From NCBI GenBank assembly GCA_016795505.1, contig JAEUHH010000051.1:1-64000 (forward strand): 64,000 bases of DNA, given 5' to 3'. Numbering within the stretch: the stretch's first letter is position 1; every line of letters begins with the position of its first letter. The translations under genes were made by a program, and so were the position numbers. Shown here one piece after another: positions 2,188 through 33,681 of this stretch. The notes beneath the pieces are model-generated. The model worked only from the letters and a program-made list of their open reading frames with translations, was not told where the DNA came from and searched no databases. Source of the DNA: Verrucomicrobiales bacterium. Lineage in GTDB: Bacteria > Verrucomicrobiota > Verrucomicrobiia > Verrucomicrobiales > DEV007.

Positions 2188-5100
2188 ATGGATGCTCTCT
2201 CACTCCACGCTTCGATCTTGGACGGATACAAGGACTATATCGGGAGTTTTATTGACATTCACGACGAAGATATTCGGACGGAGGTTGAGAGAGCACTCGC
2301 CACCGGGAAACTCTGGCCACAGCCCCTCATCCAGTTCAATCCCTCCTTCGAGCGGCACGGATCTGTCCAGGGCCTTGTCGATGACGGCACGTTGCACGAG
2401 GAAGTCGGTCGGGTTTTTGAGGGCTTCTCCCTCTACTCCCACCAGATCGAGGCGATTCGATTGGGTGCCGAGCCGCGCAGCTTCGTCGTGACTTCCGGCA
2501 CGGGATCCGGCAAGTCGCTCACCTACATCGGATCCATCTTCAACCACCTCTTCCGATTCGGCACCGGCAATGGAGTCCAAGCCATCCTCGTTTACCCGAT
2601 GAACGCGCTCATCAATTCCCAAGTCGAGGAATTGAAGAAGCTCGCAAGCGGCTACACCGCATCGTCGGGGCAGGAGTTCTCGATCCGGTTTGGAGCCTAC
2701 ACCGGACAGACTTCCCAAGACGCACGAAAGAGCCTGCTCGAAAGCCCTCCTGACATCCTCCTGACAAACTACATGATGCTAGAGTTGCTCCTGACACGCC
2801 ACGGCGAGGTCAAGATTCGGGATTCGATCTACGCGTCGCTCAAGTTCCTCGTGTTCGACGAGCTTCACACCTACCGCGGTCGCCAAGGTGCCGACGTGGG
2901 TATGCTCATTCGGCGGATTCGCGGGTGCTGCAAGTCCACCATCACGATGATTGGGACTTCCGCCACCATGGTGTCTGGAGGCAGCTTTGAAGATCAGCGC
3001 AAAGCCGTGGCCAAAGTCGCCGGTGAGATCTTCGGTGAACCGCTCACTCCTGATCAGGTCATCGTTGAATCATTGGCTAGGTCCCTGCCCGGATCCCAGA
3101 CGAAGCCTGATCGCAAAGCCCTCGCAGCCGCCATCCAGACTCCGTTGCCGGCCTCCGTTTCGGTCGAAGACCTCGCCACCCACCCGTCCGCCCTTTGGTT
3201 GGAAAGCAGAATTGCGCTCGATGTGGACGCTTCCCACGGAGACCGCCTAAAGCGCGGAACCCCGCAAGCGCTGTCGGAAATTGTCTCTGCCCTCGTCGAA
3301 GACAGTGAACTCGACAGGCAGCTCTGCGAGGACCACTTGAAAGGCCTTCTCCGCTGGATCAGCGACATCAACCTAAAGCTCGTCGAATCCGGCCAACGCT
3401 ACACGCTCCTTCCTTTCCGTCTTCATCAGTTCTTCGCGCAGACGGGTGCCGTCTACGCTACGTTGGATGAACGGGGAAAACGCTTCATCACCTTAGAGCC
3501 CGGGGTGCATCACTCGGACGCCTTGGGCGAGCGTTTTATTTTCCCCCACGTCTTCAGCCGGGCATCCGGCATGACCTACATCTGCGTTTTCCATCAGACG
3601 AATTCCGGCAGGCTCTTGCCGCGCGATTTCACCAATCAGGAACCACAGAGCGCGGAACTTTTCGCCGGCTACATCATTCCCGGCGGATTGGACATCTGGA
3701 ATCCCGACGAAGACTTCGAGAGCCTCCCACCGGCGTGGGTCCAGAACTACGATGCGCGGAAGGTCAAAAAGGAATACGAAGACCGGATGCCCCAGAAGGT
3801 GAGCTACGACTCGGAGGGGCGCGTTGATTTCGACTGGGGCACCTATCCCCTGAAAGGCTGGTTTATGAGATCTTCGCCGAAGGGGCTCCTCTTCGATCCC
3901 ACCGCCGGTCTCTTCTTTGACGGAAACACCAACGAACGCACCAAGCTGACGACTCTTGGCAACGAAGGACGTAGCACCTCGACCACCATCACCTCGTTTC
4001 TGGTCCTGCGTGAGATGGCGGTCCGACAGTTCGCCCTTCAGGACCAGAAGCTTCTCAGCTTCACCGACAACCGGCAGGATGCCGCCCTTCAGGCCGGGCA
4101 CTTCAATGATTTTATCCGCGTCGTCCGGATTCGGGCCGCGATTGCCCGAGCCCTCGCCGCAGCGCCGGGTCAGATGCTGAACTACAAGCAGATCGGAGAA
4201 GCGGTCTTCCGCGAGCTTCGTCTCGACTTCGCCAGCTTTGCTCGATCGGGGGATCCGAATCCATTCCCAGCCATTCGCGCTCAATATGAGGAGGCATTCA
4301 GCCGTTACCTCACCTATCAGGCGATCCATGACCTTCGTCGCGGCTGGCGGGTGATCCTGCCGAACCTCGAAAAATGTGCCCTGCTTTCGATCGACTACGA
4401 ACACCTTGAAGTAAACGCAGCCCACGAGCCGGGATGGGCGGAGGTGCCTTTCATCCGCGATCTTGATCATGGGAAGCGAAAGGACTTTCTTCGCAACGTA
4501 CTCGATTACTTCCGCCTCGAGTATGCCCTTCACAGCCAGACCTTGCTCGAGAGTTCTCCGCTGATCGAGGCGGACAAGGACTTCAAGGAGAAGCTCCGCG
4601 GCCCCTGGACCTTCGAAGGGCCCGACACCTTTCGCCCCTCATTTCTTAGGACATGCAAACTCCACCGCCGGGAGAATCGCAGCGGCTCCCTCGGTCTTGC
4701 CAGCGCATTCGGAAAGTTTGTGAAGCAATTCATCAAGGATTCCTTCGACACCGTCCTGGATCGGAAAGCCTATGATGAATTTCTCGCTGCCCTCCTCGCT
4801 GCCCTTTGCAAGGCCGATTACCTTCACACCCGCACGGCGCGATCCGAGACCAACGAGGAAGTTCCCGTCTATCAGCTCAAGCTGGACCACATCTTGTGGC
4901 GGGCCGGCGATCGGAAATCCGTTCGTCGCGATGAGGTGAAGCTCCGGAGCTACCGGGGCTATCAGGAGAAGCCAAACCACTTCTTCCAGTCGCTTTACCT
5001 CACAGACTTCTCCTCCCTGAAGAATCTCCGGGGAGCGGACCACACCGGGCAGCTCAAAAATGATCAGCGCATCGAGCGTGAGGAGGAATTCCGTGCGGAG

Positions 5101-7338
5101 TGGAAGAAACCGGATGGTTCGCCCGATGAGGCAAAAATCCGGGCCGATTCGATCAGCGCTCTCTTTTGTTCGCCGACTATGGAGCTTGGCATCGACATTT
5201 CGAGCCTCAGCATCGTGCACTTGCGCAATGCTCCGCCCAACCCGGCGAACTACGCGCAACGAAGCGGCCGGGCTGGGCGGAGCGGTCAAGCTGCGCTGGT
5301 CTTCACGTATTGTTCCACCTACTCGCCCCACGACCGCCATTACTTCCGCCATCGGGAGAAGCTCGTAGCCGGTGCGGTCGAGCCCCCGAAGTTCGATCTC
5401 GCCAATCGCGAGCTAGTCGAATCCCATCTCAATGCCTTCGTTCTCTCCGACATCGGCCTTCCTCAGTTGCATGACTCGGTCGCGGACATTCTCGAGCTCG
5501 AGAATCCGGATCTGCGGCTGCGTCCCGATGTCCGACTGCGGCTCACCCTTGATTCCCCCACGAGGGGGCGAGTCGCGCAGGCCTTCCGCCATCTCCTCGG
5601 CCCCCTCCTCCCCGGACTCGAGTCTCAGCGGTGGTTTACTCCTGACTGGCTCGACAAGCAGATTACCGTGTGCGCCGACCTGCTCGACGCCTCCCTTGAT
5701 CGCTGGCGTCTGCTCTATCGTGAGGCGCGGGCCAGCTTGACGAAGGCCTCACTCGCCATCGAGAGCGGTCTGCTCGTCTTCGGGAGCGAAGAATACCGTC
5801 AGCAGAAGCGCCTCCAGGATCAGGCCTCCCTGCAACTGAAGCTCCTGAAGAACGAAAGCGCTCGGGGTAGCGCCGAGATGACTGAATTCTACGTGTTTCG
5901 CTACCTTGCATCCGAAGGGTTCCTGCCCGGATACAATTTCACCCGGCTCCCCATCCGGGTCTTCGTCACCGAGGGCGACGGCGGCGACTACATTTCCCGA
6001 CCGAGGCTCATTGCCCTGCGGGAGTTCGGTCCCGGCAATATCATCTACCACAACGGCGCGAAGTTCCGGGTCAATCAGGTCATCCAGCCCGAGATCCCCA
6101 CTCAGTTGCGGCAGGTGCGCGTTTGCAAGTCCTCTGGATACTGGCTTTCCGATATTGAGAGCACCTTGAACTGCTGCCCGTTCACCGGTGTCGATCTCAC
6201 CGAGTCCAAGAATCGTGAGGACTTCATTGATGTGCTGCCTCTTACGGAATGTCGCGCCGTGCACCGCGACTACATCACCTGCGAGGAGGAGGAGCGCCGC
6301 CGTCTTGGTTTCGAGATCGACACTTACTTCTCCGTCCCTGATGGGGACATGAGCCGGGTCCATCATGCCGTAGTCCGCTCCGGTGGGGACGCCCTGCTCA
6401 ATCTCGCTTTCATTCCCGCCGCCCGTCTCGTCCAACTCAATCGCCGGGACCGCGGGCGAAAGGAAGAAGGATTCCCCCTCGGTCTCGAGACCGGCTTCTG
6501 GAAAAGCGACCACGGCGATACTCCGGCCAAGGAAGAGATCCGTTCCGTTCTCATTCAGACCCATACTTCCGCCGACGCCCTCTACATCGAGCCTGTCATC
6601 AGCCTCGGTCTCAAGCGGGAGGGAGTCCTTTCCCTGATGTATGCACTGAAACGGGCCATCGAAAACGAGTTCCAGATCGAATCCTCGGAGCTCGGCGCGG
6701 AACCTATGGGAGGAAACGAAGTGCCGAATCTCTTCCTCTACGAGGCCAGCGAAGGAAGCCTCGGGGTCCTCAGCGAACTGGTACACGAAAAGGACGCATT
6801 CCACAGGGTCGTCCATGAAGCCATCCGTCTTTGTCGTTTCGACGATCCCACCCAAACCGAGCGGGCCACCTACGACGACCTCCTCAGCTATTACAACCAG
6901 CCCCACCATCTCATCCTCGATCGCTTCCTCATCAAGGAAGCCCTCTACAAGATGGCGAATTGTTCCATCGAAGTCCGCACTTCAAAGACCGATCAATCCT
7001 ACGACGATCAGTTTTCCCGTCTGATGAAGGATAAGGATCCCACCTCGTCCACCGAAGAGACCTTTCTGAAGTTCCTTTTCAAGGAGGGGCGCAGGCTCCC
7101 GGACGAGGCTCAGAAGACCGTGCCCGGACTCTACATTCGGCCCGATTTCTATTACGCCCCGGACACATGGGTCTTCTGCGATGGCTCACCTCACGACGAA
7201 GAAAAAGTCCAAGAGGAGGACAAGGCGAAACGCGATGCCATTCTCCAGCGTGGGGATGAGGTCATCGTCTTCCACTACAAGGACGATCTCGCTTCCCTGG
7301 TCGCCCGCTACCCTGATATCTTTCGCAAAGTCCGCTAA
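2188..7338 (+). CDS. Large DEAD/DEAH helicase with DUF1998-type C-terminus (DruE/DrmA-B-like)
   Basis: A 1,716-aa superfamily 2 helicase. Walker A is TSGTGSGKS (residues about 103-111), motif II is FDELH (about 222-226), motif III is TSATM (about 256), and motif VI is QRSGRAGRSGQ (about 1024-1034). SFTDNRQDAALQAG (about 625) is typical of the YprA/MrfA family. After about residue 1300 there is a Cys pair (NCCPF) and a DUF1998-like segment, with FLYEASEGSLGV near 1515. The last 70 residues read PDFYY, then VFCDGSPHD, then VIVF, which resembles a Vsr/DUF559-type nuclease core. Helicases of this size with DUF1998 occur in Druantia (DruE). In DISARM the helicase (DrmA) and DUF1998 (DrmB) are separate proteins. 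I chose ATG 2188 because the upstream in-frame extension to 1918 is non-coding in character. The SNF2 helicase gene starts 5 bp downstream, so they are cotranscribed. Likely role: DNA translocation in phage or plasmid defence (inference). Confidence 0.85.
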   Translation: MDALSLHASILDGYKDYIGSFIDIHDEDIRTEVERALATGKLWPQPLIQFNPSFERHGSVQGLVDDGTLHEEVGRVFEGFSLYSHQIEAIRLGAEPRSFVVTSGTGSGKSLTYIGSIFNHLFRFGTGNGVQAILVYPMNALINSQVEELKKLASGYTASSGQEFSIRFGAYTGQTSQDARKSLLESPPDILLTNYMMLELLLTRHGEVKIRDSIYASLKFLVFDELHTYRGRQGADVGMLIRRIRGCCKSTITMIGTSATMVSGGSFEDQRKAVAKVAGEIFGEPLTPDQVIVESLARSLPGSQTKPDRKALAAAIQTPLPASVSVEDLATHPSALWLESRIALDVDASHGDRLKRGTPQALSEIVSALVEDSELDRQLCEDHLKGLLRWISDINLKLVESGQRYTLLPFRLHQFFAQTGAVYATLDERGKRFITLEPGVHHSDALGERFIFPHVFSRASGMTYICVFHQTNSGRLLPRDFTNQEPQSAELFAGYIIPGGLDIWNPDEDFESLPPAWVQNYDARKVKKEYEDRMPQKVSYDSEGRVDFDWGTYPLKGWFMRSSPKGLLFDPTAGLFFDGNTNERTKLTTLGNEGRSTSTTITSFLVLREMAVRQFALQDQKLLSFTDNRQDAALQAGHFNDFIRVVRIRAAIARALAAAPGQMLNYKQIGEAVFRELRLDFASFARSGDPNPFPAIRAQYEEAFSRYLTYQAIHDLRRGWRVILPNLEKCALLSIDYEHLEVNAAHEPGWAEVPFIRDLDHGKRKDFLRNVLDYFRLEYALHSQTLLESSPLIEADKDFKEKLRGPWTFEGPDTFRPSFLRTCKLHRRENRSGSLGLASAFGKFVKQFIKDSFDTVLDRKAYDEFLAALLAALCKADYLHTRTARSETNEEVPVYQLKLDHILWRAGDRKSVRRDEVKLRSYRGYQEKPNHFFQSLYLTDFSSLKNLRGADHTGQLKNDQRIEREEEFRAEWKKPDGSPDEAKIRADSISALFCSPTMELGIDISSLSIVHLRNAPPNPANYAQRSGRAGRSGQAALVFTYCSTYSPHDRHYFRHREKLVAGAVEPPKFDLANRELVESHLNAFVLSDIGLPQLHDSVADILELENPDLRLRPDVRLRLTLDSPTRGRVAQAFRHLLGPLLPGLESQRWFTPDWLDKQITVCADLLDASLDRWRLLYREARASLTKASLAIESGLLVFGSEEYRQQKRLQDQASLQLKLLKNESARGSAEMTEFYVFRYLASEGFLPGYNFTRLPIRVFVTEGDGGDYISRPRLIALREFGPGNIIYHNGAKFRVNQVIQPEIPTQLRQVRVCKSSGYWLSDIESTLNCCPFTGVDLTESKNREDFIDVLPLTECRAVHRDYITCEEEERRRLGFEIDTYFSVPDGDMSRVHHAVVRSGGDALLNLAFIPAARLVQLNRRDRGRKEEGFPLGLETGFWKSDHGDTPAKEEIRSVLIQTHTSADALYIEPVISLGLKREGVLSLMYALKRAIENEFQIESSELGAEPMGGNEVPNLFLYEASEGSLGVLSELVHEKDAFHRVVHEAIRLCRFDDPTQTERATYDDLLSYYNQPHHLILDRFLIKEALYKMANCSIEVRTSKTDQSYDDQFSRLMKDKDPTSSTEETFLKFLFKEGRRLPDEAQKTVPGLYIRPDFYYAPDTWVFCDGSPHDEEKVQEEDKAKRDAILQRGDEVIVFHYKDDLASLVARYPDIFRKVR

Positions 7339-7343
7339 TCCCC

Positions 7344-10205
7344 ATGTCCGCCACCGTCTCCCGCCAGCCAGGAACGCTCGTCCGTATCCGCGAACGCGAT
7401 TGGGTCGTGCAGCCTTCTGATGACCCGGAGCTTCTCCTGATCAAGCCCCTCGGCGGCTCTGACGAGGAGATCACCGGCATTTTCCTGCCTATCGCGGATG
7501 CCGCTGACCAACCCCGCGATGCAGAATTTCCCCGGCCTGGCCCCGAGGACCTCGGAGATTTCGCGCGCGCCCGCCTCCTGCACGATGCGGCGCGCCTCGC
7601 TTTCCGCAGTGGAGCCGGACCGTTCCGCGCCCTTGCCCGAATTTCGTTCCGCCCCCGCAGCTATCAGATGGTCCCGCTGGTCATGGCCCTGCGCCAGGAA
7701 ACGGTGCGCCTGCTCATCGCGGACGACGTGGGGGTCGGAAAAACCATCGAAGCATTGCTCGTCGTTCGTGAACTGCTCGACCGCCGCAAGATCCGACGCT
7801 TCGCCGTTGTTTGCCTGCCTCACCTCTGTGACCAATGGCAGCAGGAAATCCGAGACAAGATCGGCGTCGAGTCGGTCGTGATCCGTTCGAACACCCAGGC
7901 CCGCCTCGACCGGGAAATCCAGGGAGACACTTCGGTCTATCAGTTCTACCCGTTCCAGGTTCTTTCCATCGACTACATCAAGCAAGACTCCCGCCGCGCC
8001 CCATTCATCAATGAGTGTCCGGAGCTTGTGATCGTCGATGAAGTGCATACCTGCGCCCGCCCGCAAGGTGCCGCCGCGTCTCAGCAGCAACGCCATGCGC
8101 TGGTCAAGGCCATCGCCGCCAAGCCCGGCCAGCACCTCATCATGCTCTCAGCCACCCCACACAGTGGCAAACCCGAAGAATTCGGCTCCCTGCTCGGCCT
8201 GCTCGATCCCTCGTTTGAAACCCTCGACGTGGCCACCGCTCCTCAGGCTGATCGCCAGCGCCTTGCCCGCCAGTTCATCCAGCGCCGCCGCCAGGATGTG
8301 GAGAAATGGATGAACGAGGAGACCCCTTTCCCAACCCGTGACCCCGGCGAGTTCGACTACGACTTGTCGAAACCCTACATCGAGTTTTTCGACAAGGTGC
8401 TCGATTTCGCCCGCAGCCTCGTCGCCGGGGATGCCGCACCGGACCGACAGAGGCGCGTCCACTACTGGACCGCACTCGGCTTGTTGCGCGGCGTCATGTC
8501 CAGCCCGGCCGCCGGCGTGGCCATGTTCAGAGCCCGCCGCTCGAAACTCGGAGGCGATCTCGTGGATGAGGCGGCCGATGACGAAACCAGTCCCGTTCAT
8601 GACCATCCGGAAGGTCACGAATCCGATCTCGCACCGGTTGAAGTCGTGGAAGCCGCCGGATGGTCGGAATCCCAGCAACGCCGGATGCGTGAGTTTGAAA
8701 AGGAACTCGCCGCACTTACAGGACCGAGGCTCGACCACAAACTCGAAGCCGCCCGCATGATCATCGAGGACTGGCTCCAGTCCGGCTTCAATCCCGTCAT
8801 CTTCTGCCGATACATCCAGACCGCCATCTACCTGGGAGAGCAACTCAAGCCGCTCCTCACAAGAGCGTTCCCCAAGGCTTCCATCGAGGTGGTCACCTCC
8901 GAAGACCCCGACGAAATCCGCCGCGACCGCATCAACGCCATGGGCGGTAGCCCCCTGCGCGTCCTCATCGCCACCGACTGTCTCTCCGAAGGCATCAACC
9001 TTCACGAGCATTTCACCGCCGTCCTTCACTACGATCTGCCGTGGAATCCCAACCGCCTCGAACAGCGCGAGGGTCGCGTGGACCGCTTCGGACAACGCGC
9101 CAAGGTAGTGAAAGCCTTCCTTCTCTTCTCCAAGGACAGCGCCGTGGATGGCGTGGTGCTCGATGTCATCCTCCGCAAGGTGCGCCAAATCAAGCGAGCC
9201 ACCGGCATCAACGTTCCCTTCCCGGAAGACAGCAAGAGCATCATCGACACCATCACCCAGTCGCTCCTGCTCAACCCCGACCGGAAGATCAGCACGCGCC
9301 GCTCGGACCGCAATCAGATCGAGTTCAGCTTCGAGGAGTTCGACGAGGCCCGGAAACTCGAACTCGAAGTCTCCGACAAATACAAGCAGGCCGCCGACCG
9401 CGAAAGCAAGCGCCGCTCGATCTTCGCCCAGGAGGCCATCAAGGCTGCGGAGATCGAACAGGACCTCCGCGAGAACGACGAGGCCATCGGCTCGCCCAAG
9501 GCCGTCGAAACCTTTGTGACCGGTTCGCTCAAGACCCTCTTCGGCGTGCAGATCGACCGCATTCAATCCGGGTATCTCCTCTACACCGCCAATCTCCCAC
9601 CCACCGCCAAGGCGCTTCTTCCCGCGAAACCATCAGTCAACGTCTCCTTCGAGTCCCCCACGCCGGTGGATCACCTTTACCTTGGCCGCAACCATCCGCT
9701 GGTCGAACTACTCTGCCAGATGGTGCTCGCCCATAGCATCGAGCGGAACCGCTTTCGTGCCGCCCGCGCCGCCGTCCTTCGCACCGCCGCCGTTCAAAAA
9801 CCGACCACCCTGCTGATGTTCCGCTGCCGCAATGTCATCGAGGAGAAACGCAGCGCCGGCCATCAACTCGTCGCGGAGGAAATGCTTCTCTGGGGCTACC
9901 GGGGATCACCGGAGGACAAAGATTTCCTCACCCGGGAGGAGGCGCTCGAACTCCTCACCAACGCACGCCCCGTGGGCGATCTCACCCCCGAACGCTGCCA
10001 ACGCCTTATCCAGGAAGGCGTCGCGACCCTTGATCGACTCCGCCCCGCCTTCGACCAGCTCGCCGAGCAGCGCTCCCAGCGCCTCGTCGAGGCCCACGAA
10101 CGCTTCTCCTCCCTTGTCGAGAAAAAGCGCTTCGGCGTCGTTTACCCGGTGCTCCCCATGGATGTGCTCGGCCTCTACGTCCTCATGCCCGCCGGTGTAT
10201 CGTGA
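7344..10205 (+). CDS. SNF2-type DNA helicase/translocase (DrmD-like)
   Basis: A 953-aa Swi2/Snf2-class ATPase. Walker A is DDVGVGKT (residues about 128-135), motif II is VDEVH (about 230-234), motif III is LSATPHSG (about 266), and motif VI is QREGRVDRFGQ (about 573-583). The spacing between the N- and C-terminal helicase lobes is normal, so the motor looks intact. The C-terminal third is helical and charged and has no domain I recognise. Proteins of this length and motif spelling act as DrmD in class 1 DISARM and as helicases in Dpd-type systems. The ATG lies 5 bp after the large helicase stop and the next gene starts 31 bp after this one, so all three probably form one transcript. Calling it DrmD is an inference from motif resemblance and context. 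Confidence 0.85.
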   Translation: MSATVSRQPGTLVRIRERDWVVQPSDDPELLLIKPLGGSDEEITGIFLPIADAADQPRDAEFPRPGPEDLGDFARARLLHDAARLAFRSGAGPFRALARISFRPRSYQMVPLVMALRQETVRLLIADDVGVGKTIEALLVVRELLDRRKIRRFAVVCLPHLCDQWQQEIRDKIGVESVVIRSNTQARLDREIQGDTSVYQFYPFQVLSIDYIKQDSRRAPFINECPELVIVDEVHTCARPQGAAASQQQRHALVKAIAAKPGQHLIMLSATPHSGKPEEFGSLLGLLDPSFETLDVATAPQADRQRLARQFIQRRRQDVEKWMNEETPFPTRDPGEFDYDLSKPYIEFFDKVLDFARSLVAGDAAPDRQRRVHYWTALGLLRGVMSSPAAGVAMFRARRSKLGGDLVDEAADDETSPVHDHPEGHESDLAPVEVVEAAGWSESQQRRMREFEKELAALTGPRLDHKLEAARMIIEDWLQSGFNPVIFCRYIQTAIYLGEQLKPLLTRAFPKASIEVVTSEDPDEIRRDRINAMGGSPLRVLIATDCLSEGINLHEHFTAVLHYDLPWNPNRLEQREGRVDRFGQRAKVVKAFLLFSKDSAVDGVVLDVILRKVRQIKRATGINVPFPEDSKSIIDTITQSLLLNPDRKISTRRSDRNQIEFSFEEFDEARKLELEVSDKYKQAADRESKRRSIFAQEAIKAAEIEQDLRENDEAIGSPKAVETFVTGSLKTLFGVQIDRIQSGYLLYTANLPPTAKALLPAKPSVNVSFESPTPVDHLYLGRNHPLVELLCQMVLAHSIERNRFRAARAAVLRTAAVQKPTTLLMFRCRNVIEEKRSAGHQLVAEEMLLWGYRGSPEDKDFLTREEALELLTNARPVGDLTPERCQRLIQEGVATLDRLRPAFDQLAEQRSQRLVEAHERFSSLVEKKRFGVVYPVLPMDVLGLYVLMPAGVS

Positions 10206-10236
10206 GACGGACCATCCCGATTTTCTCCCCCTTCTG

Positions 10237-11955
10237 ATGCGAACACCCGACCAGATCCTCGAACTCCTTGACCTGCTCGCCGAGCAGACCGCCGATGATC
10301 TCGAGGACCAGGATCTCGATTTCAAGGAATGGAATACCCGCAGCTTCGACGATTCCGTGAAGCTGGTGATTGAGATGGAGGTCTGCATGGCAAATGGCGG
10401 TGGTGGCAGCGTGGTCTTCGGAGTCAGGGACCGGGTCTCCGGGCGGGCCAACGCCATCATTGGCGTACCGCCTGAAGTCGATGTGAACCGCCTCAAGCGC
10501 GCCGTTTACGACTGCACCGACCCGAAGATCACCCCGGTCTTCGAGCAGATCACCGTGCCCGAGGGTTCGGGCCGCCTCCTCCTCATGCAGATCCATCCCG
10601 GCATGCCGCCCTACACGGACACTTCGGGCACAGGCAAGGTTCGCATTGGCAAGGATTGCAAACCGCTCACCGGTTCCCTTCGCAAGAGACTCATGGTGGA
10701 GACTGGGGAAACCGACGCCACCGCGGCCCTTGTTCCCGGCCACTGGGAGTCGCTCGTTTCACCCGTCGCCCTGGAGAGGCTCCGCAACATCGCCGCGGCT
10801 GAGAAAGCGCCGCGGGAAATGCTGTCGCTGCCCGATTCCGACCTGCTCCGCAGTCTGGGGTGCCTCACGCAGGATCAACTGACCCGCGCCGGCCTGCTCC
10901 TTTGCGGGAAACCCGAGGCCATCCGCGCGACCTTCCCGGGATACGTCTGGACTTTTCTCCGCATGGACTCGGACACTTCATACAGCGACCGGCACGACGG
11001 CTTAGACGCGCTGCCCGTCGCGTTGGGACTGTTCGAAGACCGCATCGCGCCCGGCAACCCCATCCGCACCCTTGAGATCGGCCTCATCCATGCCGAGATC
11101 CGTGCTTATCCCGGTGTTGCCATTCGCGAGGCACTTTTGAACGCTCTCTGCCATGCCGACTTCCGTCTGCCCGGCCCCATTCTTATCAAACAGTTCCCCA
11201 ACCGGCTCGAGATATCCAATCCCGGCACCTTTGTGGGCGGGATTTCTCCGGCAAACATCCTGCACCACCCCCCGGTTCCCCGAAATCCGGCTCTCGTCGA
11301 TGCCCTCGCAAAACTTAGGCTGGTGAACCGCTCCAATCTTGGCATCGGCCGCATGTTCGAATCGTTTCTCATCGAGGGCAAAGAGCCCCCGGTGATCCAG
11401 GAGTCCGGAGAGACCATCATCGTCACCATGCTCAAGCAGGATGTGTCTGCCCCCTTCCGGGCCTTCGTCTCCGATGAGTCGAAACAGGGGCGTCACCCCG
11501 GCGTGGACGAACTCCTTGTCCTCCAATACCTCCTCCGCCACTCCGAACTGGAAACCACCCATGCCGCTGCTATGTGCCAGCGTCCCGACCCCGCCATGAG
11601 GGCCACCCTCAGCCGGATGGAACGGGATTTCGGCTGGATCGAACGCGGAGGCAGCGGACGCGGCACCTACTGGACCCTGAGCCGTTCCCTCGCTAAACGC
11701 CTCCGCCCCGAGGTGGTCGATCGTGCCCAAACCCGCATTGATATCGAGACCGCGAAGACCCGCATTATGAGTATTCTCAAGGACCGCGCGAAACACCGCG
11801 AACCCGGCCTCTCCAATGCCGAACTTCGCGCCATCACGTCGTTCAACCGCGATCAGATTAACCGCCTAATGCGCGAGTTGCGTCAGCAACACCCTGAAAT
11901 CAAGATCATAGGGGAAAGGAAGGGCGCCCGATACCAATATGAGACCGGTCTTTGA
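10237..11955 (+). CDS. AlbA_2/Schlafen-type protein with HATPase-like and winged-helix segments
   Basis: 572 aa. The N-terminus (residues about 25-150) has the AlbA_2 pattern: DFKEW, a helix, then MANGGGGSVVFGVRD. The centre (about 285-370) carries REALLNALCHADF and LEISNPGTF, the marks of the C-terminal ATPase-like domain of the COG2865 group once annotated as RecG-like regulators. The last 70 residues (LSNAELRAITSFNRDQINRLMREL) look like a winged helix-turn-helix. The family includes transcription regulators and proteins of defence islands; the AlbA_2 fold is shared with Schlafen nucleases. The ATG at 10237 lies 31 bp after the SNF2 stop. The frame is open upstream to 9832, but that part overlaps the helicase and is antisense-like filler. 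It may sense nucleic acid or control the operon (inference). Confidence 0.8.
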   Translation: MRTPDQILELLDLLAEQTADDLEDQDLDFKEWNTRSFDDSVKLVIEMEVCMANGGGGSVVFGVRDRVSGRANAIIGVPPEVDVNRLKRAVYDCTDPKITPVFEQITVPEGSGRLLLMQIHPGMPPYTDTSGTGKVRIGKDCKPLTGSLRKRLMVETGETDATAALVPGHWESLVSPVALERLRNIAAAEKAPREMLSLPDSDLLRSLGCLTQDQLTRAGLLLCGKPEAIRATFPGYVWTFLRMDSDTSYSDRHDGLDALPVALGLFEDRIAPGNPIRTLEIGLIHAEIRAYPGVAIREALLNALCHADFRLPGPILIKQFPNRLEISNPGTFVGGISPANILHHPPVPRNPALVDALAKLRLVNRSNLGIGRMFESFLIEGKEPPVIQESGETIIVTMLKQDVSAPFRAFVSDESKQGRHPGVDELLVLQYLLRHSELETTHAAAMCQRPDPAMRATLSRMERDFGWIERGGSGRGTYWTLSRSLAKRLRPEVVDRAQTRIDIETAKTRIMSILKDRAKHREPGLSNAELRAITSFNRDQINRLMRELRQQHPEIKIIGERKGARYQYETGL

Positions 11956-11957
11956 CT

Positions 11958-11987
11958 GCTCATAACCGCGCTCATAAATGCTCAGAA
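11958..11987 (+). promoter_or_regulatory. Possible operator: three GCTCA(T/G)AA sites
   Basis: GCTCATAA occurs at 11958-11965 and 11970-11977, and GCTCAGAA at 11980-11987, two bases after the AlbA_2 gene stop. The 186-bp gap before the kinase-like gene holds no other gene. The repeats could be binding sites for the winged-helix protein encoded just upstream, but chance cannot be excluded. Confidence 0.25.
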
Positions 11988-12141
11988 TATGAGGCAATTT
12001 ATCCGAACCTCATGAGGCCCCACCCAAAAAAACCATTGAAGTGGCTCCAGATGCAATTCCCCGGCAATTCGAACCTGAATTGCGGCAATGCCTGATCCAA
12101 TCCGGCCGATAACGCCTTGATCCCCGGTTGCCCCGCCCGTA

Positions 12142-12828
12142 ATGTCCCCGTATGAACCAGTCCGACCGGCTCCGGGAGTCCCGCTCCAGGCACACGTTGA
12201 AGAGCTCCGACGCCGCTGTGAAGCAGTTTCGCGCCTTCAGGGTGGTTCAACCTATTTCCACGAAGAACTCGGAATCTTCCGCGTCTACGCCGCCGAGCAA
12301 GGCCTCTTCCTCGAGGAAACACCAGCCGAACTGAATCGCCCACCCGACGAGGAGGGCAACGAGCATCAGGTCTGGTATCTGGCCGGTCAGGAGGCCGTCC
12401 TCAAGGCCACGTGGCCCGATTTTTTCGGCCTGCTCGTCATTCATCGACCCGATGAGGAGGCAAAGGCCTCGCCCATCGACTACCTCCAGCGGTGGTCGAT
12501 CCACAATGACCTGTTCGGGGACGACATCGCCTTTGTCGGCGCCCTTCAGACCGAGTCCGGGCTGCGCCTCCTCATCCGCCAGACGGCTATCGCCGGTGTG
12601 CCGGCCACCGAAGCCCAGATCGCCGAATTCTTTACCTCAACCGGGTGGAAACGCTTCATCCTCGAGGGAAACGTCGCCTACTTCGACCCCGAGCGGTGCA
12701 TCGCCGTGTCCGACACCCATCGGGGGAACCTCATTTTCATGGACGACGGGCTCCTCGCCCCGATCGACCTCCGCGTTCAGGTTCTTTCCGGAGCCCTCCT
12801 CGACACCGTCATTGGGCTGTGCCAATAA
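12142..12828 (+). CDS. Kinase-like protein of the polyvalent-protein type
   Basis: 228 aa. The pattern follows the serine/threonine/tyrosine kinase-like domain first described inside phage and plasmid polyvalent proteins. There is an early acidic HQVWYL strand (about residue 75), then YLQRWSIHNDLFGDDI (about 114), RQTAIAGVPATEAQIAEF (about 148), a catalytic-loop-like SDTHRGNLIF (about 189), and APIDLR (about 205), which corresponds to the magnesium-binding Asp region. The canonical HRD is replaced by SDTHRGN, normal for this divergent group. It stands alone instead of inside a large polyvalent protein. The gene lies 186 bp after the AlbA_2 gene on the same strand and may belong to the same system. 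Substrate and activity are unknown. Confidence 0.6.
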   Translation: MSPYEPVRPAPGVPLQAHVEELRRRCEAVSRLQGGSTYFHEELGIFRVYAAEQGLFLEETPAELNRPPDEEGNEHQVWYLAGQEAVLKATWPDFFGLLVIHRPDEEAKASPIDYLQRWSIHNDLFGDDIAFVGALQTESGLRLLIRQTAIAGVPATEAQIAEFFTSTGWKRFILEGNVAYFDPERCIAVSDTHRGNLIFMDDGLLAPIDLRVQVLSGALLDTVIGLCQ

Positions 12829-13298
12829 ATTCCTGCAATAATTCTTAGCGATAACCGGGTTGCAAGAGGAATAGAGATTGGTTTAAAGGCGTCAGCAGGT
12901 GGGAGAGGAGCGGTCCCTTTCGTCCCATCTGCCGGGCACAAAATCATCGAAACTCCAAAATGGCACTTGCTTCTCTGCCGCGCATCGTTGAGCGCGGCGG
13001 AAAAAAGGTTGACCAAACCGACGGTATAAGGTCATTCTGTCGGAAGTAAGACTATTTTCATCCGTCCTCTCCCGGGCGTCCCCGAACCTGGCTCCAAAGG
13101 CGACGAGAGAGGGGAGGACCCGAAATAGGAATTTCGCGCAACCACTGACCGACAACTTTGCAGAGATGGCGTGTCCGCCCATCATGGCAAGCCGAACCAG
13201 CGAAATTCGAAGCCCGACGCAAAACTGGAAAACAGCACGGATTTCCAATCCCCCGCTCCCATTCATCCAAACTGAATAAAACCCGCAATCGGAAACCA
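12829..13298. other. 470-bp intergenic region, no gene recognised
   Basis: Open frames on both strands lack recognisable domains. This gap separates the helicase operon from the RCC1/RHS pair and is a plausible island-internal junction and promoter region for the secreted genes. No clear terminator was found. Confidence 0.5.
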
Positions 13299-15944
13299 AT
13301 GAACATGAAGAGTCTCCTTGCGACCATCACCGCCATCATCCTTCTAACTGGAGTTGGCGTCGGTCAACAAATGCCCCAGGACAACTGGCGCTATGATGGC
13401 GTCGAATTTTCCGGGCCGGACACGACCAAAGCGCTCCGCTCGATCGCCATCGGGACGGGAGGAGTCTATGTTGGATACGGCAACCCGGCGACGGCCATCG
13501 TGCAATTCCAGGAGAATGGCACGTTCATCCGGGAGTTCGGCGCGTTTACCTACGTCCTCGGAATCGCATGCGACTCGGCTGGGAATGTGTTTGTGCTCGA
13601 CCGTGGAGATTCAAAGGTGAGGGTGTTCGACCCGGACGGGGTCTTTCTGCGCGAGTGGGGCGGACCGGGCGCGGGCGATGGCCAGTTCAGTCTCGCGTCC
13701 GCTTCCTGGACAACGATGATCGCCGTGGACTCGCAAGATCAGGTCTATGTCTGCGATCCAGGCAATGCCCGGGTGCAGGTTTTCGATGGCAACGGGAACT
13801 TCCTCCGGAAATGGGGCGATCCGGGGCCGCTCGCGGGTCAATTTGCCAGTCAGGATCCGGACGGCATCGCGATCGGTCCGAACGGCTGGGTTTACCTCAT
13901 GGTCAACGGCAGTTCGCCGAATCTCCGCATCTTCGATCGGCAGGGAAATTTTATCAGGAGTAGCGCCATCACTTATTATTCATACGTTCCCGATATCGCA
14001 ACCACCCCGGACGGCCTTTTGACATATTATGCAAATCATAGTTCGCCGTCGTCTAATTTTGTCAGATTTTTGGATGCCAAATTGAGCGTTGCTAGGTCAT
14101 ACCACATCTCGACCAGCAATACTCGCGGCCTCGCGCACAACCGACGTGGCGATTTATACGCAGTTTTGGCCACGAGTCCGAACAAGGTTCGTATCCACCA
14201 ACGGGAATACTCAAATGTTCACAACTCGCTGGTGCCGCATGCGATCCCTCAGCCCGCGGTGCTGAATGTGGCGCAGCGAGTGGGCGTGCCGTGGCTGGAC
14301 ATCGATTACAAGGTTACGGATGCGGACAGCCCGACGGTGACGACCGGGGCGCTGGCCTTCCTGGATGGCAACAACACGCTGGCGCATGTGGTGCCGATGA
14401 CCACCTTCGTGGAAGGGACCGATGCGAATATTGGGGCGAGCCAGCCGACAAACGTCGAGCGGCGCCTCACCTGGGACATGGCGGCGGACTGGTCGGTGGA
14501 TTTTGCCCAGATCCAAGTCGAGATCCTGGCGAAGGATGCCCGCAACCCGCTCGGGATCCATTGGATCACCATCCCCGCCGAGGGCAGCGCCCCCGCGATC
14601 GAAGTCAGTAGGGGGCCTGTCTCCGAGGCGGAGATGTTGAGCGTCTGGTATTGGTTTCTGGCCACCCAACAGTCCGGCATGGCGTTGGAGGCCGGCGTTA
14701 TCAGAGGCGTCGGCGGAGCCTATGCGGGGCATGTGCTGGCTAGTGGCACGACCACGGCTGGCTCGGGGCGCTTTTTCCAGTACCACCAGCTTGGCGTGCG
14801 GCCGATCACGGTATCGGAATTGTCCAGGGCCAGAGCCGGAAACTACGGGTTCACATCCCTTGACCATAACTCGGTGGTTCGGGAGCCGGTGGGCGCTTTG
14901 CAGTCAGTATTCATCTGGGGATCCAACGGTTCCGGCCAGCTCGGCGATGGCACCACCACGTCGCGCAGCTTTCCTAGTTTGGTGGCCACTGGAGTCGACC
15001 AAGTAGTCGGTGGTGGCAGTCATAGTCTTCTTCTATCCCCCGATGGCACGCTTCGGGCTTGCGGATACAACAACTTCGGCCAGCTTGGCGATAGCACCGG
15101 TACCGATCGGACCAGCCCGGTGCAGGTGGGCATGGCGAGCAACTGGCAGTCGGTCTCTGCTGGCGGTAATCACAGCCTGGGTGTGCGAAGCGACGGCACT
15201 CTCTGGGCTTGGGGGCGCAATAGCTCGGGCCAACTCGGCGATGGAACCACCACGAACCGATCCAGCCCGGTGCAGGTGGGTACGGCGAGCAACTGGCAGT
15301 CCGTGTCAGCCGGCGCCGTTTACAGCCTAGGCGTGAGAAGCGACGGCACACTGTGGGCTTGGGGAAACAACAGCATCAGCCAGCTCGGCGATGGCACCAC
15401 CACGCAGCGCAACAGCCCGGTGCAGGTGGGCACGGTGAGCAACTGGCAGTCGGTCTCGGCCGGCGGCAGTCACAGCCTGGGTGTGCGGAGCGACGGCACG
15501 CTGTGGGCTTGGGGATATAATGCCAGTGGCCAGCTCGGCGATGGCACCACCACGCAGCGCGCCAGCCCGGTGCAGGTGGGCACGGCGAGCAACTGGCAGT
15601 CGGTCGCGGCCGGCAGCAACCACAGCTTGGGTGTGCGAAGCGACGGCACTCTGTGGGCTTGGGGAACCAACGGTAACGGCCAACTCGGCGATGGCACCAC
15701 CACGCAGCGCACCAGCCCGGTGCAGGTGGGCACGACAGGCAACTGGCAGTCAGTCTCGGCCGGCGGCGAACACAGCCTGGGCGTGAGAAGCGACGGCACG
15801 CTGTGGGCTTGGGGAAACAACAGCAACAGCCAGCTCGGCGATGGCACCACCACGCAGCGATCCAGCCCGGTACAGGTGGGAAGTGATGTGCTGCGCGCTT
15901 CGGCGGGCGGCAGTCACAGCATGGCAATTATCTCGCCCCAGTGA
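13299..15944 (+). CDS. Secreted NHL- and RCC1-repeat protein
   Basis: 881 aa. ATG 13299 gives a clear signal peptide (MNMKSLLATITAIILLTGVGVGQ), which decides the start over the longer frame from 13158. Residues about 30-320 are NHL-type propeller strands (GNVFVLDRGDSKVRVFD and similar). Residues about 330-490 are a verrucomicrobial surface module with no name I know. From about 535 to the end run seven RCC1-type repeats of 50 aa built on VRSDGTLWAWG, GQLGDGTTT and SPVQVG. The protein is probably exported and may bind ligands or bridge surfaces. The next gene starts 39 bp downstream, so the two giant secreted proteins are probably cotranscribed. A bacterial PKD/Ig adhesin is an alternative description of the middle module. 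Confidence 0.85.
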   Translation: MNMKSLLATITAIILLTGVGVGQQMPQDNWRYDGVEFSGPDTTKALRSIAIGTGGVYVGYGNPATAIVQFQENGTFIREFGAFTYVLGIACDSAGNVFVLDRGDSKVRVFDPDGVFLREWGGPGAGDGQFSLASASWTTMIAVDSQDQVYVCDPGNARVQVFDGNGNFLRKWGDPGPLAGQFASQDPDGIAIGPNGWVYLMVNGSSPNLRIFDRQGNFIRSSAITYYSYVPDIATTPDGLLTYYANHSSPSSNFVRFLDAKLSVARSYHISTSNTRGLAHNRRGDLYAVLATSPNKVRIHQREYSNVHNSLVPHAIPQPAVLNVAQRVGVPWLDIDYKVTDADSPTVTTGALAFLDGNNTLAHVVPMTTFVEGTDANIGASQPTNVERRLTWDMAADWSVDFAQIQVEILAKDARNPLGIHWITIPAEGSAPAIEVSRGPVSEAEMLSVWYWFLATQQSGMALEAGVIRGVGGAYAGHVLASGTTTAGSGRFFQYHQLGVRPITVSELSRARAGNYGFTSLDHNSVVREPVGALQSVFIWGSNGSGQLGDGTTTSRSFPSLVATGVDQVVGGGSHSLLLSPDGTLRACGYNNFGQLGDSTGTDRTSPVQVGMASNWQSVSAGGNHSLGVRSDGTLWAWGRNSSGQLGDGTTTNRSSPVQVGTASNWQSVSAGAVYSLGVRSDGTLWAWGNNSISQLGDGTTTQRNSPVQVGTVSNWQSVSAGGSHSLGVRSDGTLWAWGYNASGQLGDGTTTQRASPVQVGTASNWQSVAAGSNHSLGVRSDGTLWAWGTNGNGQLGDGTTTQRTSPVQVGTTGNWQSVSAGGEHSLGVRSDGTLWAWGNNSNSQLGDGTTTQRSSPVQVGSDVLRASAGGSHSMAIISPQ
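14905..15925 (+). repeat. 150-bp tandem repeats encoding RCC1 blades
   Basis: The coding sequence repeats with an exact 150-bp period: the CTGTGGGCTTGGGG segment recurs near 15200, 15350, 15500, 15650 and 15800. The central copies are nearly identical at the DNA level, and most differences lie in the few residues after WAWG. This points to recent duplication or gene conversion. Confidence 0.9.
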
Positions 15945-15983: not shown

Positions 15984-18900
15984 ATGAGCGGGCAGAAACA
16001 GCACAGCCAAGCGAGGCCGCCCGCGGCAATCTCGGGATTGGCCGCGGTGGTGGCTCTGGCTGTCCTGTTGGCATTCGGTGCGAGCCCGGCGCGAGCGCAG
16101 AATGTCGAATTCCGCCAAATCTCTTCGCCGGCTGGGGTGATCAACCAGACGACCTTCCCTACCGCGGGTAGCCAAATCTCGACGGTGACCGCTCCGGCGA
16201 CGATCTCCGGCTACCGGTTCACTCACTGGACCCTGAATGGAATGCGGGCGGGGGATTTGGCGGGCGGGGGGGCGAACCCGATTTTCTTCACCATCGTTGA
16301 GCCGGTGGAGGCGGTCGCCAATTACGTGCTCGAATCGGCGGACAGCGACGGGGACGGGGTTCTGGACTGGCTGGAAATCTATTACTTCGGCAATCTCAAT
16401 CTGGCCGCCGATGACGATCCGGATGGTGACCGCTTTACCATTCTGGAGGAGCTGACGCTGGGATATCACCCCGGCTTGCATGACTTGCGGAGCCAGGGTG
16501 GGCTCAGTCGGCGGCGGGGACAGTTGATCGCCGTCAATGATCCAGGGCCCGGTCCTGATCCCGACCCCGATCCCGACCCCCACCCTGAATTGGCCGATCT
16601 GGATGGGGATGAGTTCCTGAGATGGCGCGAAGACCTCCGGGGGTATCTCGATACCTCCTATGACCGCCTCAACGAGGGGGGGGTTAGCCGTCGAAGGTCG
16701 GCCCCGATTTTCGCGGTGCCGATTGCGAACTTCGCGCGATTGGTCGAAGCCAGCACCCCTGGTGGAGTGGTGGATCAGGAGCGGGTGGTGCCAGCGGGCT
16801 CGACGGTGAATCTCACCACGGCGCCGCTCACGCACGATGGGTATCAGTTCACCGGATGGTTTGCCAACGAGCAGCGACTTGACTCGCCGCCACGGAACCA
16901 GCCAACGCCGATCACGGTGCACGTGGACACGCTGGCCATCGCCCGCTACCATGATGGGACGGCTGACACCGACGCCGATGGAGTGCCGGATTGGGTGGAG
17001 TGGTATTCCTTCGATTCACTCGCCAATAATCTGGATTCTGACCCGGATGGCGACGGGTTGCCTCTGCGGGTGGAATTGTTCCGGGGATATTCGACCATTG
17101 CGCCGGATGTTCTGGATCCGGGCGGAGTCAGCCGGCGGCGGTCGGCTCTCGTCGATGTCGGGCCGGCGGCGGGTTTTCCCTATTCGATGGTAAGCGCTCC
17201 GGGCGGCATGGTGAATCTGGCCGGCTTCGTCGCGCCGGGTACGGTGGTGACGAGCCCGGATCTGGGCAGCAGCACGAACGGGAACTTTCGGTTCGCTTTT
17301 TGGGAGGTGAACGGCGTCCGGCAAACGGATCCTGGCGGCTATTCTAGGGGAGGCATTTCCTTCCCGGTGAGTGCTCCGACCGTGGCGGTTGCACGCTACG
17401 CGGACACCACTCTCGACGATGATTTCGATGGCATCGCGGACTGGTATGAGCTGGCGCACTTCGGCTCGCTCAACCGATCTCCGTCCAACGATGGGGACAA
17501 CGACGGCATCACTTTGGGCGGCGAGATTTTTCGCGGCTATTCGCCACTGGTTCGCGACCATCTCGCGGCGGGCGGGATTTCGCGGCGGCGTTCGGACCTC
17601 GTGGGTGTCAACGCGGTTCCCCTGAGCGCGGCGCCTTACGTGACGGTGAACGGGACGACTGACGTGACTCCGACCGGCGCCCGGTTGAGCGCCTTTGTGA
17701 ATGGAGTGGGGTTGGAATCGACGGTCTACTTTGAGTATGGCCCCACGATGTCCTACGGTGCGCGCACGCCGACCCGGACCATTGGCGCGGGCAGCGGGCC
17801 CGTGATCGTGGCCGAAACCATCACCGGGCTCGCGCCCGCGGCGATCCATCACTTTCGGGTCGTCGCGGAGAATTCGGTCGGCCAGCGGATCACGCCAGAC
17901 TACACGTTCAGCACGTTCTGGGATGCGGTTGCAACCGAGGGTTTCGAGGACGGCGATGTGGGTGATCGCTGGCAGATCATGGGCGGCGTCTGGCAGATTG
18001 GTCCGCCGATGTCCGGTCCAGAGGGGGCTTTCGCAGGAGCGGCAAGCGCCGGGACAAATCTCGCGGGCGATTATGCGCCCGGCACCGACAGCCGGATCAT
18101 CAGCCCGCTTTTTGAGGTGCCGGCCTTGGACCAATTCCCCCACCTCCGCTTCAACCACTGGTGGAATTTCGGGTTGGGCGACCATGGTGCCGTCGAGATC
18201 CGCGAGGGCACCACAGGGGCCTGGAAAGTCGCCGCCACTTTCACCGGTCCCTTCACGACGTGGATAGAAAAGTCGCTCGATCTTTCCGCATACGCCGGGC
18301 GGCAGATTCAAGTGGCCTTCCGCATCAAGGCCGATGCCGATGCCAATGTCGGCCCCGGTTGGTTCGTGGACGAGGTGCGGCTCGTGACGGGGGAAGTCGA
18401 CAGTTGGCTGCCGAATTCCCTAGATACGTATCCGGTGGCTGATTTCTGGCGCGATTGGACGGTGACCGGCACTGTCTGGGAGGCCGGTCCGCCCACCGCA
18501 GGTCCAGCCGGCGCCTTCGACGGGGAGACCTGCGCGGCCACGGTCCTTGGCGGCAATTACCCCATCAATGCCGACAGCCGCCTCGTCAGCCCATTTTTCC
18601 AGGTGCCTGCGGCGGCGCTGAATCCGCGCTTTCGCTTCTGGCACTGGTTCGACTTTGGCGCGGGCGATAAGGGTGCGGTCGAAATCCGGCGGCACGGCGG
18701 CCAGTGGGAAGAACTGCTCGGCTTTGGCGGGAATAGTGGCGGGGGCTGGTCAACGCCGTCCTTGGATTTGCGCTCCTTTGCAGGCCAGTGGGTGCAGGTG
18801 GCGTTCCGACTGCGCAGCGATGCGTCTGTTCAGCGCGCGGGATGGTATGTCGATGCGGCCCGGATCACCACGGGTGCCGAAGTGCTGAAGAATCCTGAGA

Positions 18901-21900
18901 CCTTCGAGGGCGAAACCGGAGACTGGCGAAGCGATTTCACCGGGTTGTGGCAGATCGGGCGTCCGACCTCCGGTCCCGGCTCAGCCCATGGCGGCAGCAA
19001 CGTCGCGGCGACCAATTTGTCCGGAAACTATCCCGCCAACATTTCGGCCCGTTTGGAGAGCCCTGCATTTCTGGTCGGTGATCCGGGCGCCAACCGCCTG
19101 ATCACCCTGCGGTTCTGGCAATGGCATCAATTTGGGAACGGCGACCAGGGTTCTCTGGGAATCTCGGTGCGGGATGGGGAAGTGTGGTCCGATTGGGTGC
19201 CTGCGCTCACCGTAACGGGTTCCTCGGGTGGCTGGCAGCAGCGGGTTCTCGACCTTGGCAGCTACCGCGGCAAGACCGTGAAATTGGGCTTTCTGCTCAC
19301 CGCGGATAGTGACGGCTCGACTGGTCCGGGATGGTATTTCGATGATCTTGAAATCACCTCCGTGGTCAGGGGCGAACTCGCCGCTGGCGCGCCAGTACAG
19401 AACGACATCGCCGCAAATGGCGATTTTCAATATTACGCGCTGACTCTCGACACGGCTGGTCCGTTGATCCTGTCGCTCTCCCATACTGGAGTGGGCAACC
19501 GGATCGAGCTTTTCGCCTCCCGTACGCTGCTCCCATCGCGGGGCGCCCACGAATTTGGCGACGCGTCGGGGCCCGGCGCGAATCGCGAATTGCTGATCCC
19601 GTGGGCCTCGCCGGGCACCTGGTATATCCTCGTTTACGCCGATACCGTCGTCACGCCCGGCTCGTTCAATCTCCAGGCTGTTACTCCGGGAGTGGCGCTC
19701 ACCAGTTCCACCCCAGCCAGCCATGCGTCGAATGCGCCAGTCACGATGACGCTTAGTGGGGCGGGCTTCCGATCTGGAGCCGCTGTGGAAATGGTCTCCG
19801 ATAGCGGGACGGCAATCGCCGCCAGTTCGGTCACCCACGATTCCTTTACCAGCCTGACGGCCACGTTTGGAGCGAACAGTTTGCCGCCAGGCGTTTACGA
19901 TGTGAGGATTCGCGACATCGACGGTGGCTCGGCCGTTTTGGCAGATGCCTTCACATCCCTCGCCGCTGGGGAGCCCAGGCTGGAAACCAAACTGATCATG
20001 CCGGGAGCGATCCGCCCAGGCGCTCCCGCGACCATTTATATCGAATATGCCAACACCGGCAACGCCTCGATGCCCGCGCCCCTGCTCCAATTGCGACCTC
20101 GCGAGGGTTCCCTGAACCGCCCAATCCTGACGCTCGATCCGGCTATCACCGTCCAGACCTTCTGGTCGGGCGACAGCAATCTGCCTCCGGGAGCTTCCAC
20201 CGAGATTTTCATCCTCGGCAGTGGGGCGCAGGCGGGCATTCTTCAGCCCGGCGAGCGGCGACAGGTGCCGGTCTATTTCTCCAGCCTGCTGCAGCCCTGG
20301 GCTGCCACGTCGCTGGATATGGAAATCCGCTACTGGACGGCGGATGACGCTTCGCCCATCGATTGGGCTTCGCGCAAAATCCAGCTCCGCCCACCCACCC
20401 TGAACGCTGCGGTCTGGGACATCGTCTTCGCCAATCTCACCGGCGACCTAGGAACAACCGCCGATTATGTGAGGATGCTCAATGAAAACGCAACCTTCCT
20501 CGGACGCCTCGGCCAGCGTGTGATCGACGTGAGAGAACTTTGGAACTTCGAACTTCAGCAAGCCTACGGTTACTCGCCCTTGCCGGTGATTGGCTCCGCC
20601 ACGGATGCCGCCGTCTCCAGTCCGGGGACGCCGTTGTCGATCGGTCGCCGCTTTTCCTCCAATCTCCGCTCCCGTTGGGAGACCGGACCCTTTGGCCGTG
20701 GTTGGTACACCCCGTGGCAGACGCGCCTGCTGGTGGAACACAATGGAGCCATCGTGCGCATCGTGGGCGAAGGTGGTTCGGCCCGCGTTTTCTCCCGCGA
20801 CACGCGGAATGGGAACTACTTCTCGGGGGCTGGCGACAGTTCCAAGCTAAGCGCTGTCGGCGGCGGTTACGAGTTGCGCGAGCCTAATGGCACCGTCACG
20901 CGCTTCAACTCGTCCGGCCAGATCGCCTTGGTGGACGATGCCAACGGCAATCGCGTGACGGCCAGCTACAACGCCGGTCGGGTGGCCACCCTCGCGCACA
21001 GTTCGGGCGCTTCAATCTCAGTTTCGTATGGAAGCCATGGCTTCGTGTCCCGGATTGTGGAATCGACGGGTCGCTCGGCAGACTTCACTTATGATGGAGC
21101 CTACCTGGCCTCTGTCACCACGGATGACGGGAAGGTAACTCAGTACACCTATCACACTACAGGCGCACCCGCCCGGCTTCACGCACTGACTTCGATCACC
21201 CGAGGCGGGGTGACCAGGACGTTCTCTTGGGATGATCGGGGACGGCTTGCCGAAAGCGCCATTCCGGCAGCCGGTCAGACAATCGGCTTCGGCTACGACG
21301 AGGCGGGCGGCGTGAACATTTCCGATGTGGCAGGCACAACCTCGTTCTTCTTCGATCATCGCGGTTTGTTGGCGAAGACCGTCGATCCGCTTGGCAACAC
21401 CACCACCTCGGAATTCGACCAGGATCTCCGACTCAAGCGCCTCCTGCTGCCTTCTGGCGACAGCCGCAGCTTTACCTGGTGCAGTTGTGGCAGCCCGGCG
21501 ACGATCACCGACGAACTCGGTCACACCACCCGCTTCAGCTACGACCACCCCCTGAAGAAGATGACCGCCTTCGTCGATGCGAAAGGCAATCGCACGAGCT
21601 ACACCTACGACGCGAAGGGGAACCTGCTCGCGACGACCTACGCCAATCAGTCGGTGGAATCACTCGGCGCCTATGATGCGACGGGTCTTCCCGCGTCGCT
21701 CACCAACCGGCGAGGCCAGACTTCCACCTTCACCTACACTCCATCCGGTCAGATTGCCCGCCGGACATTGGCCGAAGGCGATGTCGCGGATTTCACCTAT
21801 GACGCCCGAGGCAACCTCATTCGCGTCACCGAGCAACCGGTGACGGGGCCAGAGAAGATCACGACCTACGACTACACCCCTGCGACTGACGGCGACCGTC

Positions 21901-26420: not shown

Positions 26421-26681
26421 ATGACGGTTCACACCAAGGCCTCGCACAAGTCCACGCGGCCCTCGCGCAGATTGGCGGCTTTCCAATGGGGGATGCCTAC
26501 GCGCTGCTGCACGGCCGTGGGCATGGACCCCGAATGGCACCTGGCCGAAGCGATCCGGCGCTTGCGGCCCGGAACCACCCGAGAGGAAATCGCCGGGCTG
26601 ACGCCGGCCAGGCTGGCACCCGTCCTGAGGGCTGAGCGGCTGGCGGGTGAGTCGGCGGTCGATCAAGCGGCCGCCGCTTGA
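26421..26681 (+). pseudogene. Possible IS66-type transposase C-terminal remnant
   Basis: A short frame whose middle reads VGMDPEWHLAEAIRRL, then TREEIAGLTPARLAP. This resembles the C-terminal tail of IS66 TnpC proteins (GIDPxxYLxxVLxRL then LTPxxW). No catalytic domain remains. It overlaps the end of the IS110 relic by 19 bp on the other strand. The 114 bp between the RHS stop and this frame hold nothing recognisable. Confidence 0.35.
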
Positions 26682-27730: not shown

Positions 27731-27770
27731 CGGTTGTTAGGTTGGGAGGGCAACCCCGCCTGGCAACGCC

Positions 27771-31955: not shown

Positions 31956-32270
31956 ATGTCCCGCGAAACCGACATCCAATGGAGCGACAGCACGGTGAAC
32001 CCCATCATGGGGTGCGCCGGCTGCGAGCTGTTTCCCAGTCCGGAGAGCGTCCTGGCCGCCATCGATCAGGCGGTCGGGGGAGTCCTTGCGGGAGAGGCCG
32101 GGGCACGTTGGGGAGCCGGAAAGGCAAGGAATCTCTATCGGAATCTCATCTTTCAGGCCTTCGATACGATGCCGGAACCCCGGCGAAAAGCCGGCCACAA
32201 GCTGGCCGTTTCGACGATCAGGATCAACTGGACGGAAGCGCGGGAGCGTCTCCTGACTGGCCTTCTGTGA
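31956..32270 (+). pseudogene. Phage Gp37/Gp68 (DUF5131) protein, N-terminal fragment
   Basis: ATG 31956 opens MSRETDIQWSDSTVNPIMGC then CELFPSP, the conserved N-terminus of the phage Gp37/Gp68 family (DUF5131), usually about 250-450 aa and often paired with a three-Cys-motif partner. Only 104 codons remain before a stop, and the last 16 overlap the 3' end of the integrase relic on the opposite strand. The gene was evidently cut at this junction. The frame is open upstream to 31881 without family resemblance. The 262 bp between copy A of the repeat and this ATG hold no recognisable gene. Confidence 0.65.
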
Positions 32271-33611: not shown

Positions 33612-33681
33612 GATTATCCCGTCTCTCAACATTCCTTTAGCCTCGTAAACAACTGTTGACGAGATTTTCTTGCGGGTTGCC

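Follow-up and report, generated by a model that had tools for sequence, protein, structure and literature searches.

ARMADA Type I, named by Bell et al. 2025, is related to both DISARM and Druantia, and its core consists of a helicase, a SNF2 protein and a methyltransferase encoded in that order (PMC12458937). Criteria for the class further include, in its helicase, BrxA-like, zinc-barrel, MarR-like and coiled-coil insertions and an active nuclease of Vsr type at the C-terminus, and the YprA tree of the authors spans 52,000 sequences. In the ARMADA Type II system of E. coli all four genes are needed, and protection is direct and non-abortive, with no cell killing (PMC12458937). The tested system in the ARMADA literature is of Type II; no experimental test of a Type I system was found there. 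DruE of Druantia, a related helicase, acts as a helicase-nuclease on ssDNA-containing intermediates (PMC13192584). Fusions of a Schlafen RNase with a minimal histidine kinase and a wHTH lie beside BREX systems in at least 1,017 taxa, and this architecture is treated as a BREX RNase effector (PMC12839542).

The window, that is, the whole stretch of 64,000 nucleotides analysed here (its first base is also the first base of the contig), very probably contains an ARMADA Type I anti-phage locus, with a Schlafen-like gene in the accessory slot, unrelated cargo before the methyltransferase and a kinase-like gene outside the system (Table 1). This is a known kind of system, and the new elements are the accessory gene and the split layout. 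The locus shares with Type I the homologous helicase, SNF2 protein and methyltransferase, the gene order, the clade and a C-terminal Vsr-like motif. However, its methyltransferase is 17.6 kb from the SNF2 gene and its accessory slot holds a Schlafen-like gene of BREX type. The Type II system of E. coli has homologous core genes, but differs in gene order, forms its own branch and includes an additional RelE-UvrD helicase, ArmD, which was not seen in the window. Druantia III (DruE/DruH) shares a related YprA helicase; however, the DruE branch is separate from that of the window helicase, and no DruH-like gene was seen beside the latter. The assignment places ARMADA in Verrucomicrobiota, a phylum that the main text of the defining preprint does not mention (PMC12458937).

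Table 1. Genes and other features of the ARMADA Type I-like locus, in window coordinates
Feature	Position	Strand	Basis
YprA/DUF1998 helicase, ArmC role, 1,716 aa	2188..7338	+	Pfam, tree, motifs
BrxHII/RapA-like SNF2 translocase, ArmA role, 953 aa	7344..10205	+	PADLOC, homology, tree
Schlafen-like accessory protein, AlbA_2 + HATPase_c_4 + winged helix, 572 aa	10237..11955	+	Pfam, homologues, model
Kinase-PolyVal orphan gene, 228 aa, probably outside system	12142..12828	+	Pfam, homologue contexts
RCC1/NHL repeat protein, intervening, probably outside system	13296..15944	+	Pfam
YD-repeat (RHS-like) protein, 3,440 aa, intervening, probably outside system	15984..26306	+	ORF; nature read from sequence
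IS110-family transposase region, broken, immediately upstream of methyltransferase	26640..27780	-	Transposase_20; genomic copies
PglX/DrmMI-like DNA methyltransferase, ArmB role	27786..31616	+	Homology, Eco57I/MmeI domains
Two tyrosine recombinase/integrase genes, right edge of locus	32224..35178	-	Phage_integrase; second match below cutoff

The four plus-strand genes at 2188-12828, which the initial annotation had grouped as a candidate defence operon, are spaced by 5, 31 and 186 bp in the ORF list, as it described, with the SNF2 gene adjoining the helicase at the 5-bp gap. Pfam finds DEAD, Helicase_C and MZB (0.00015, just below cutoff) in the helicase, SNF2 and Helicase_C in the second protein, SLFN_AlbA_2 and HATPase_c_4 in the third and Kinase-PolyVal in the fourth. 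The annotation was right that this defence locus follows neither of the usual arrangements, DISARM or Druantia, while having features of both.

The helicase tree contains 22 rows, with reference rows labelled by gene content, those of ARMADA I by gene order, rather than drawn from the PMC12458937 set. In it, the window helicase groups (100/100) with the homologues from genomes G187 and G131, and next with Caballeronia, G292 and G197. The rows for E. coli ARMADA II and DruE fall outside this ARMADA I clade, and the window helicase is not found in the DruE clade of the 22-row tree. The SNF2 tree agrees and leaves BrxHII of BREX type 3 outside. Both trees thus support a position of the helicase and SNF2 protein inside the ARMADA I clade, apart from DruE and BrxHII; since several outer rows are long-branched and the labels reflect gene content, the tree supports the type but cannot define it alone. 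Full-length homologues of both helicases are found by tblastn on plasmids of Caballeronia, Paraburkholderia, Deinococcus, cyanobacteria, Actinomycetota and others. These pairs are mostly side by side with a DNA methyltransferase next, and the gene order is reversed in Nostoc, Thermus and Natrinema. In Deinococcus radiodurans R1, the helicase of the ARMADA I-like set is at 157200-162281 of NC_000958. On the Nocardioides plasmid pNOCA01 (L185 1-5081), genes annotated as DISARM drmA and drmB lie a few kb upstream of an ARMADA I-like operon.

The helicase is taken to start at the ATG at 2188, in accordance with where the G187 homologue (79% identical) starts; the mechanical ORF begins earlier, at 1918. 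The Walker A lysine (K109) and the DELH motif (224-227) are conserved, and PADLOC matches to the DruE profile are only partial. Near the C-terminus the motif PDFYY..VFCDGSPHD is conserved in the family, and a DUF559 match occurs in two of four family members, the window copy being without one. The C-terminus is therefore predicted from these motifs to be a Vsr/DUF559-like nuclease; the structural model of this region is poor (pLDDT 60.7) and has no PDB match. Because E. coli ARMADA II protects non-abortively, the Type I core may be expected to act directly as well. The methyltransferase would mark host DNA as self, and the SNF2 protein and the helicase, with its predicted Vsr-like nuclease, would recognise and process unmarked phage DNA.

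The Schlafen-like protein has a quite different distribution from the core. A single scan of 84,980 species for its AlbA_2 family gave 91 relatives, 80 of which were kept. Forty-one of these are in BREX loci (27 type 1-like and 14 type 3-like), where the type 1-like examples usually lie between BrxC and PglX. The other 39 are in neither BREX type, many of them on short contigs. None of the 80 is in an ARMADA locus, and no plasmid homologue was found at 1e-40. The window protein has the same domain architecture as the BREX-linked Schlafens (PMC12839542), and its own homologues in BREX loci mostly adjoin PglX; in contrast, the window gene is beside an ARMADA core, and neither BrxC nor PglZ was seen next to it. 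Within the family, E23 and D28 are present in 59/59 sequences and D65 in 57/59. In a profile alignment these positions match E205, E210 and D248 of SLFN13, giving a three-carboxylate site in which Asp (D28) replaces a Glu of SLFN13. In SLFN13, mutating these residues weakens tRNA cleavage or abolishes it. Structure prediction gives a model (mean pLDDT 86.5) whose nearest match is 3lmm, followed by Schlafens, and Foldseek also matches MarR regulators weakly. The conserved triad and the modelled fold support a putative RNase activity.

AlbA_2/HATPase proteins frequently carry a regulator annotation, and the Schlafen-like protein could instead be a transcriptional regulator of the operon, with its winged helix on DNA, rather than an RNase effector. 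Its winged-helix C-terminus, the MarR matches and its location 31 bp downstream of SNF2, in a probable operon, are consistent with such a role. However, the carboxylate triad of the Schlafen RNases is kept, and the same architecture is taken as a BREX RNase effector (PMC12839542). We consider the regulator a plausible alternative, although somewhat improbable on balance. As an RNase, the Schlafen-like protein might serve as a backup that cuts tRNA or rRNA, and its ATPase/winged-helix part could perhaps be the trigger, sensing that infection has occurred or that the core has failed.

The position of this gene is one that varies among relatives. In 17 Verrucomicrobiota loci inspected, window included, the helicase and SNF2 genes are always adjacent, and the methyltransferase is next wherever the contig reaches that far. 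The slot between SNF2 and the methyltransferase is empty in seven loci and occupied in ten, by different genes (occupants without a Pfam call are named as read from their sequence). The window AlbA_2 gene, a DUF6998 gene, a DUF1016-like gene with a four-helix protein, an AlbA_2/HATPase gene, a DUF4062/HATPase gene and a DUF262-like gene are each found in one locus. Another has DUF3800-like and AlbA_2-like genes on a contig that ends before the methyltransferase. In three loci (L148 9900-10472, L149 8875-9381 and L150 10798-11313) the slot contains a conserved protein of 168-190 aa, of which the L149 copy has no Pfam match. ARMADA loci on plasmids add a Phd/VapC pair and a four-helix bundle protein. 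The variable slot resembles the site of extra nucleases in BREX loci. It is conceivable, and we suggest it only tentatively, that ARMADA and BREX share an exchangeable pool of backup effectors beside the methyltransferase, and that a BREX-type Schlafen RNase has here entered an ARMADA operon, acting as a suicide backup when a phage disables the core.

The methyltransferase is present but displaced. A Caballeronia methyltransferase query finds one site in the genome from which the window derives, at window positions 27786-31601 (62% identical), and loss of the gene was rejected on this basis. The window therefore holds a complete ARMADA core. The protein has Eco57I/MmeI domains (Pfam) and a GNPPY motif, scores 711 bits against the PADLOC DrmMI model, and is about 59-62% identical to the Caballeronia ARMADA methyltransferase. 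A C-terminal truncation was also considered and rejected: a conserved part of 1,265 aa aligns with the G187 protein, and the longer tails of the G187 and Caballeronia proteins are unlike each other. The gene keeps the strand and order of the core, but 15.8 kb separate it from the AlbA_2 gene, a stretch holding the kinase-like gene, the RCC1 protein, the YD-repeat protein and the broken IS110 transposase. In the closest relative, G187, which belongs to the same taxonomic order, helicase, SNF2, a DUF6998 gene and methyltransferase fit within about 13 kb, and SNF2 and the methyltransferase are only about 0.6 kb apart. Given the separation in the window, transcription of the displaced methyltransferase may depend on a promoter of its own, and function of the system may be impaired. 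No long direct repeats flanking the 12-27 kb insert were recognised. The IS110 region has homologous copies elsewhere in the genome. A stretch of ~110 bp within it (26640-26750) is repeated at 96% identity near the starts of contigs C5, C20 and C23, and an inverted copy is present at C72:65543-65652, a little beyond the window; the stretch is probably an IS end.

This arrangement could also mark a decaying locus, in which cargo and the IS have split the operon and defence has been lost. The 15.8 kb of unrelated genes and the broken IS110 element fit decay, as does the compact spacing in G187. However, all four reading frames (helicase, SNF2, Schlafen and methyltransferase) are open, and the three core proteins match those of G187 over nearly their whole length (helicase 79%, SNF2 85%, methyltransferase 83% identical). 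As in restriction-modification generally, losing only the methyltransferase should be harmful as long as the restriction side works. We consider decay rather unlikely.

The kinase-like gene has two close homologues (70% and 61%), which occur in other Verrucomicrobiota contexts, and the stretches examined around them hold no ARMADA genes; no phage or plasmid homologues were found. On account of these contexts, the gene most likely lies outside the ARMADA system. The initial annotation had proposed that all four genes form a distinct subtype and had left the methyltransferase outside it. A real defence locus is indeed present, but its core set is already known as ARMADA Type I (PMC12458937), to which the methyltransferase belongs although it lies beyond the annotated span. 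The shared strand, the tight spacing and a combination of ARMADA core and AlbA_2 family absent from the 80 AlbA_2 loci speak for a new subtype; however, the trees put the helicase and SNF2 protein in ARMADA I, a methyltransferase is nearby, and neither the AlbA_2 nor the kinase gene travels with the core, which makes a new subtype very improbable. A conserved four-gene system was rejected for this lack of co-occurrence, and the outcome largely matches what the annotation had itself named as grounds for abandoning its proposal, a set already named or genes with no conserved neighbourhood.

Automatic labels for these proteins require some caution. The SNF2 protein matches PADLOC model PDLC02853, labelled DpdE, over its full length with 560 bits, and the DrmD model with 290 bits. 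The SNF2 copy of the Caballeronia ARMADA locus (L024 13998-16859) scores 608 bits against PDLC02853, and because the model matches this protein equally well, the DpdE label is not diagnostic. PADLOC names such proteins DpdE, DrmMI or DruE, by which automatic annotation can be misled, and since PDLC02853 matches an ARMADA I SNF2 protein over its full length, automatic calls may mislabel ARMADA loci. A relative of Dpd or of class 1 DISARM, as the DpdE, DrmD and DrmMI scores would suggest, is hardly credible and was rejected, because the DpdE label is not diagnostic, matches to DrmD and DpdE stay below the NCBIfam cutoffs, and the helicase and its MZB/DUF1998 region lie in one 1,716-aa ORF rather than in a split DrmA/DrmB pair with the DUF1998 domain in a separate protein (DrmB).

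Several other features are present in the window and genome. An ORF for an AAA+ ATPase runs from base 49 to 813, near the contig start, and has a partial IetA-like PADLOC match; no partner gene is visible. Upstream of the helicase, two similar non-coding stretches (1240-1390 and 1615-1760) resemble, by eye, remnants of a phage gene of Bro-N type, and between them the tandem repeats GAGAGAGG and GGGTCAGA are visible, also by eye. The same genome encodes another YprA-like helicase, 2,028 aa long, on contig C55 (L157 6577-12663), beside large ORFs. Its best PADLOC match is DruE1, followed by DruE3, and the region is possibly a Druantia-like system.
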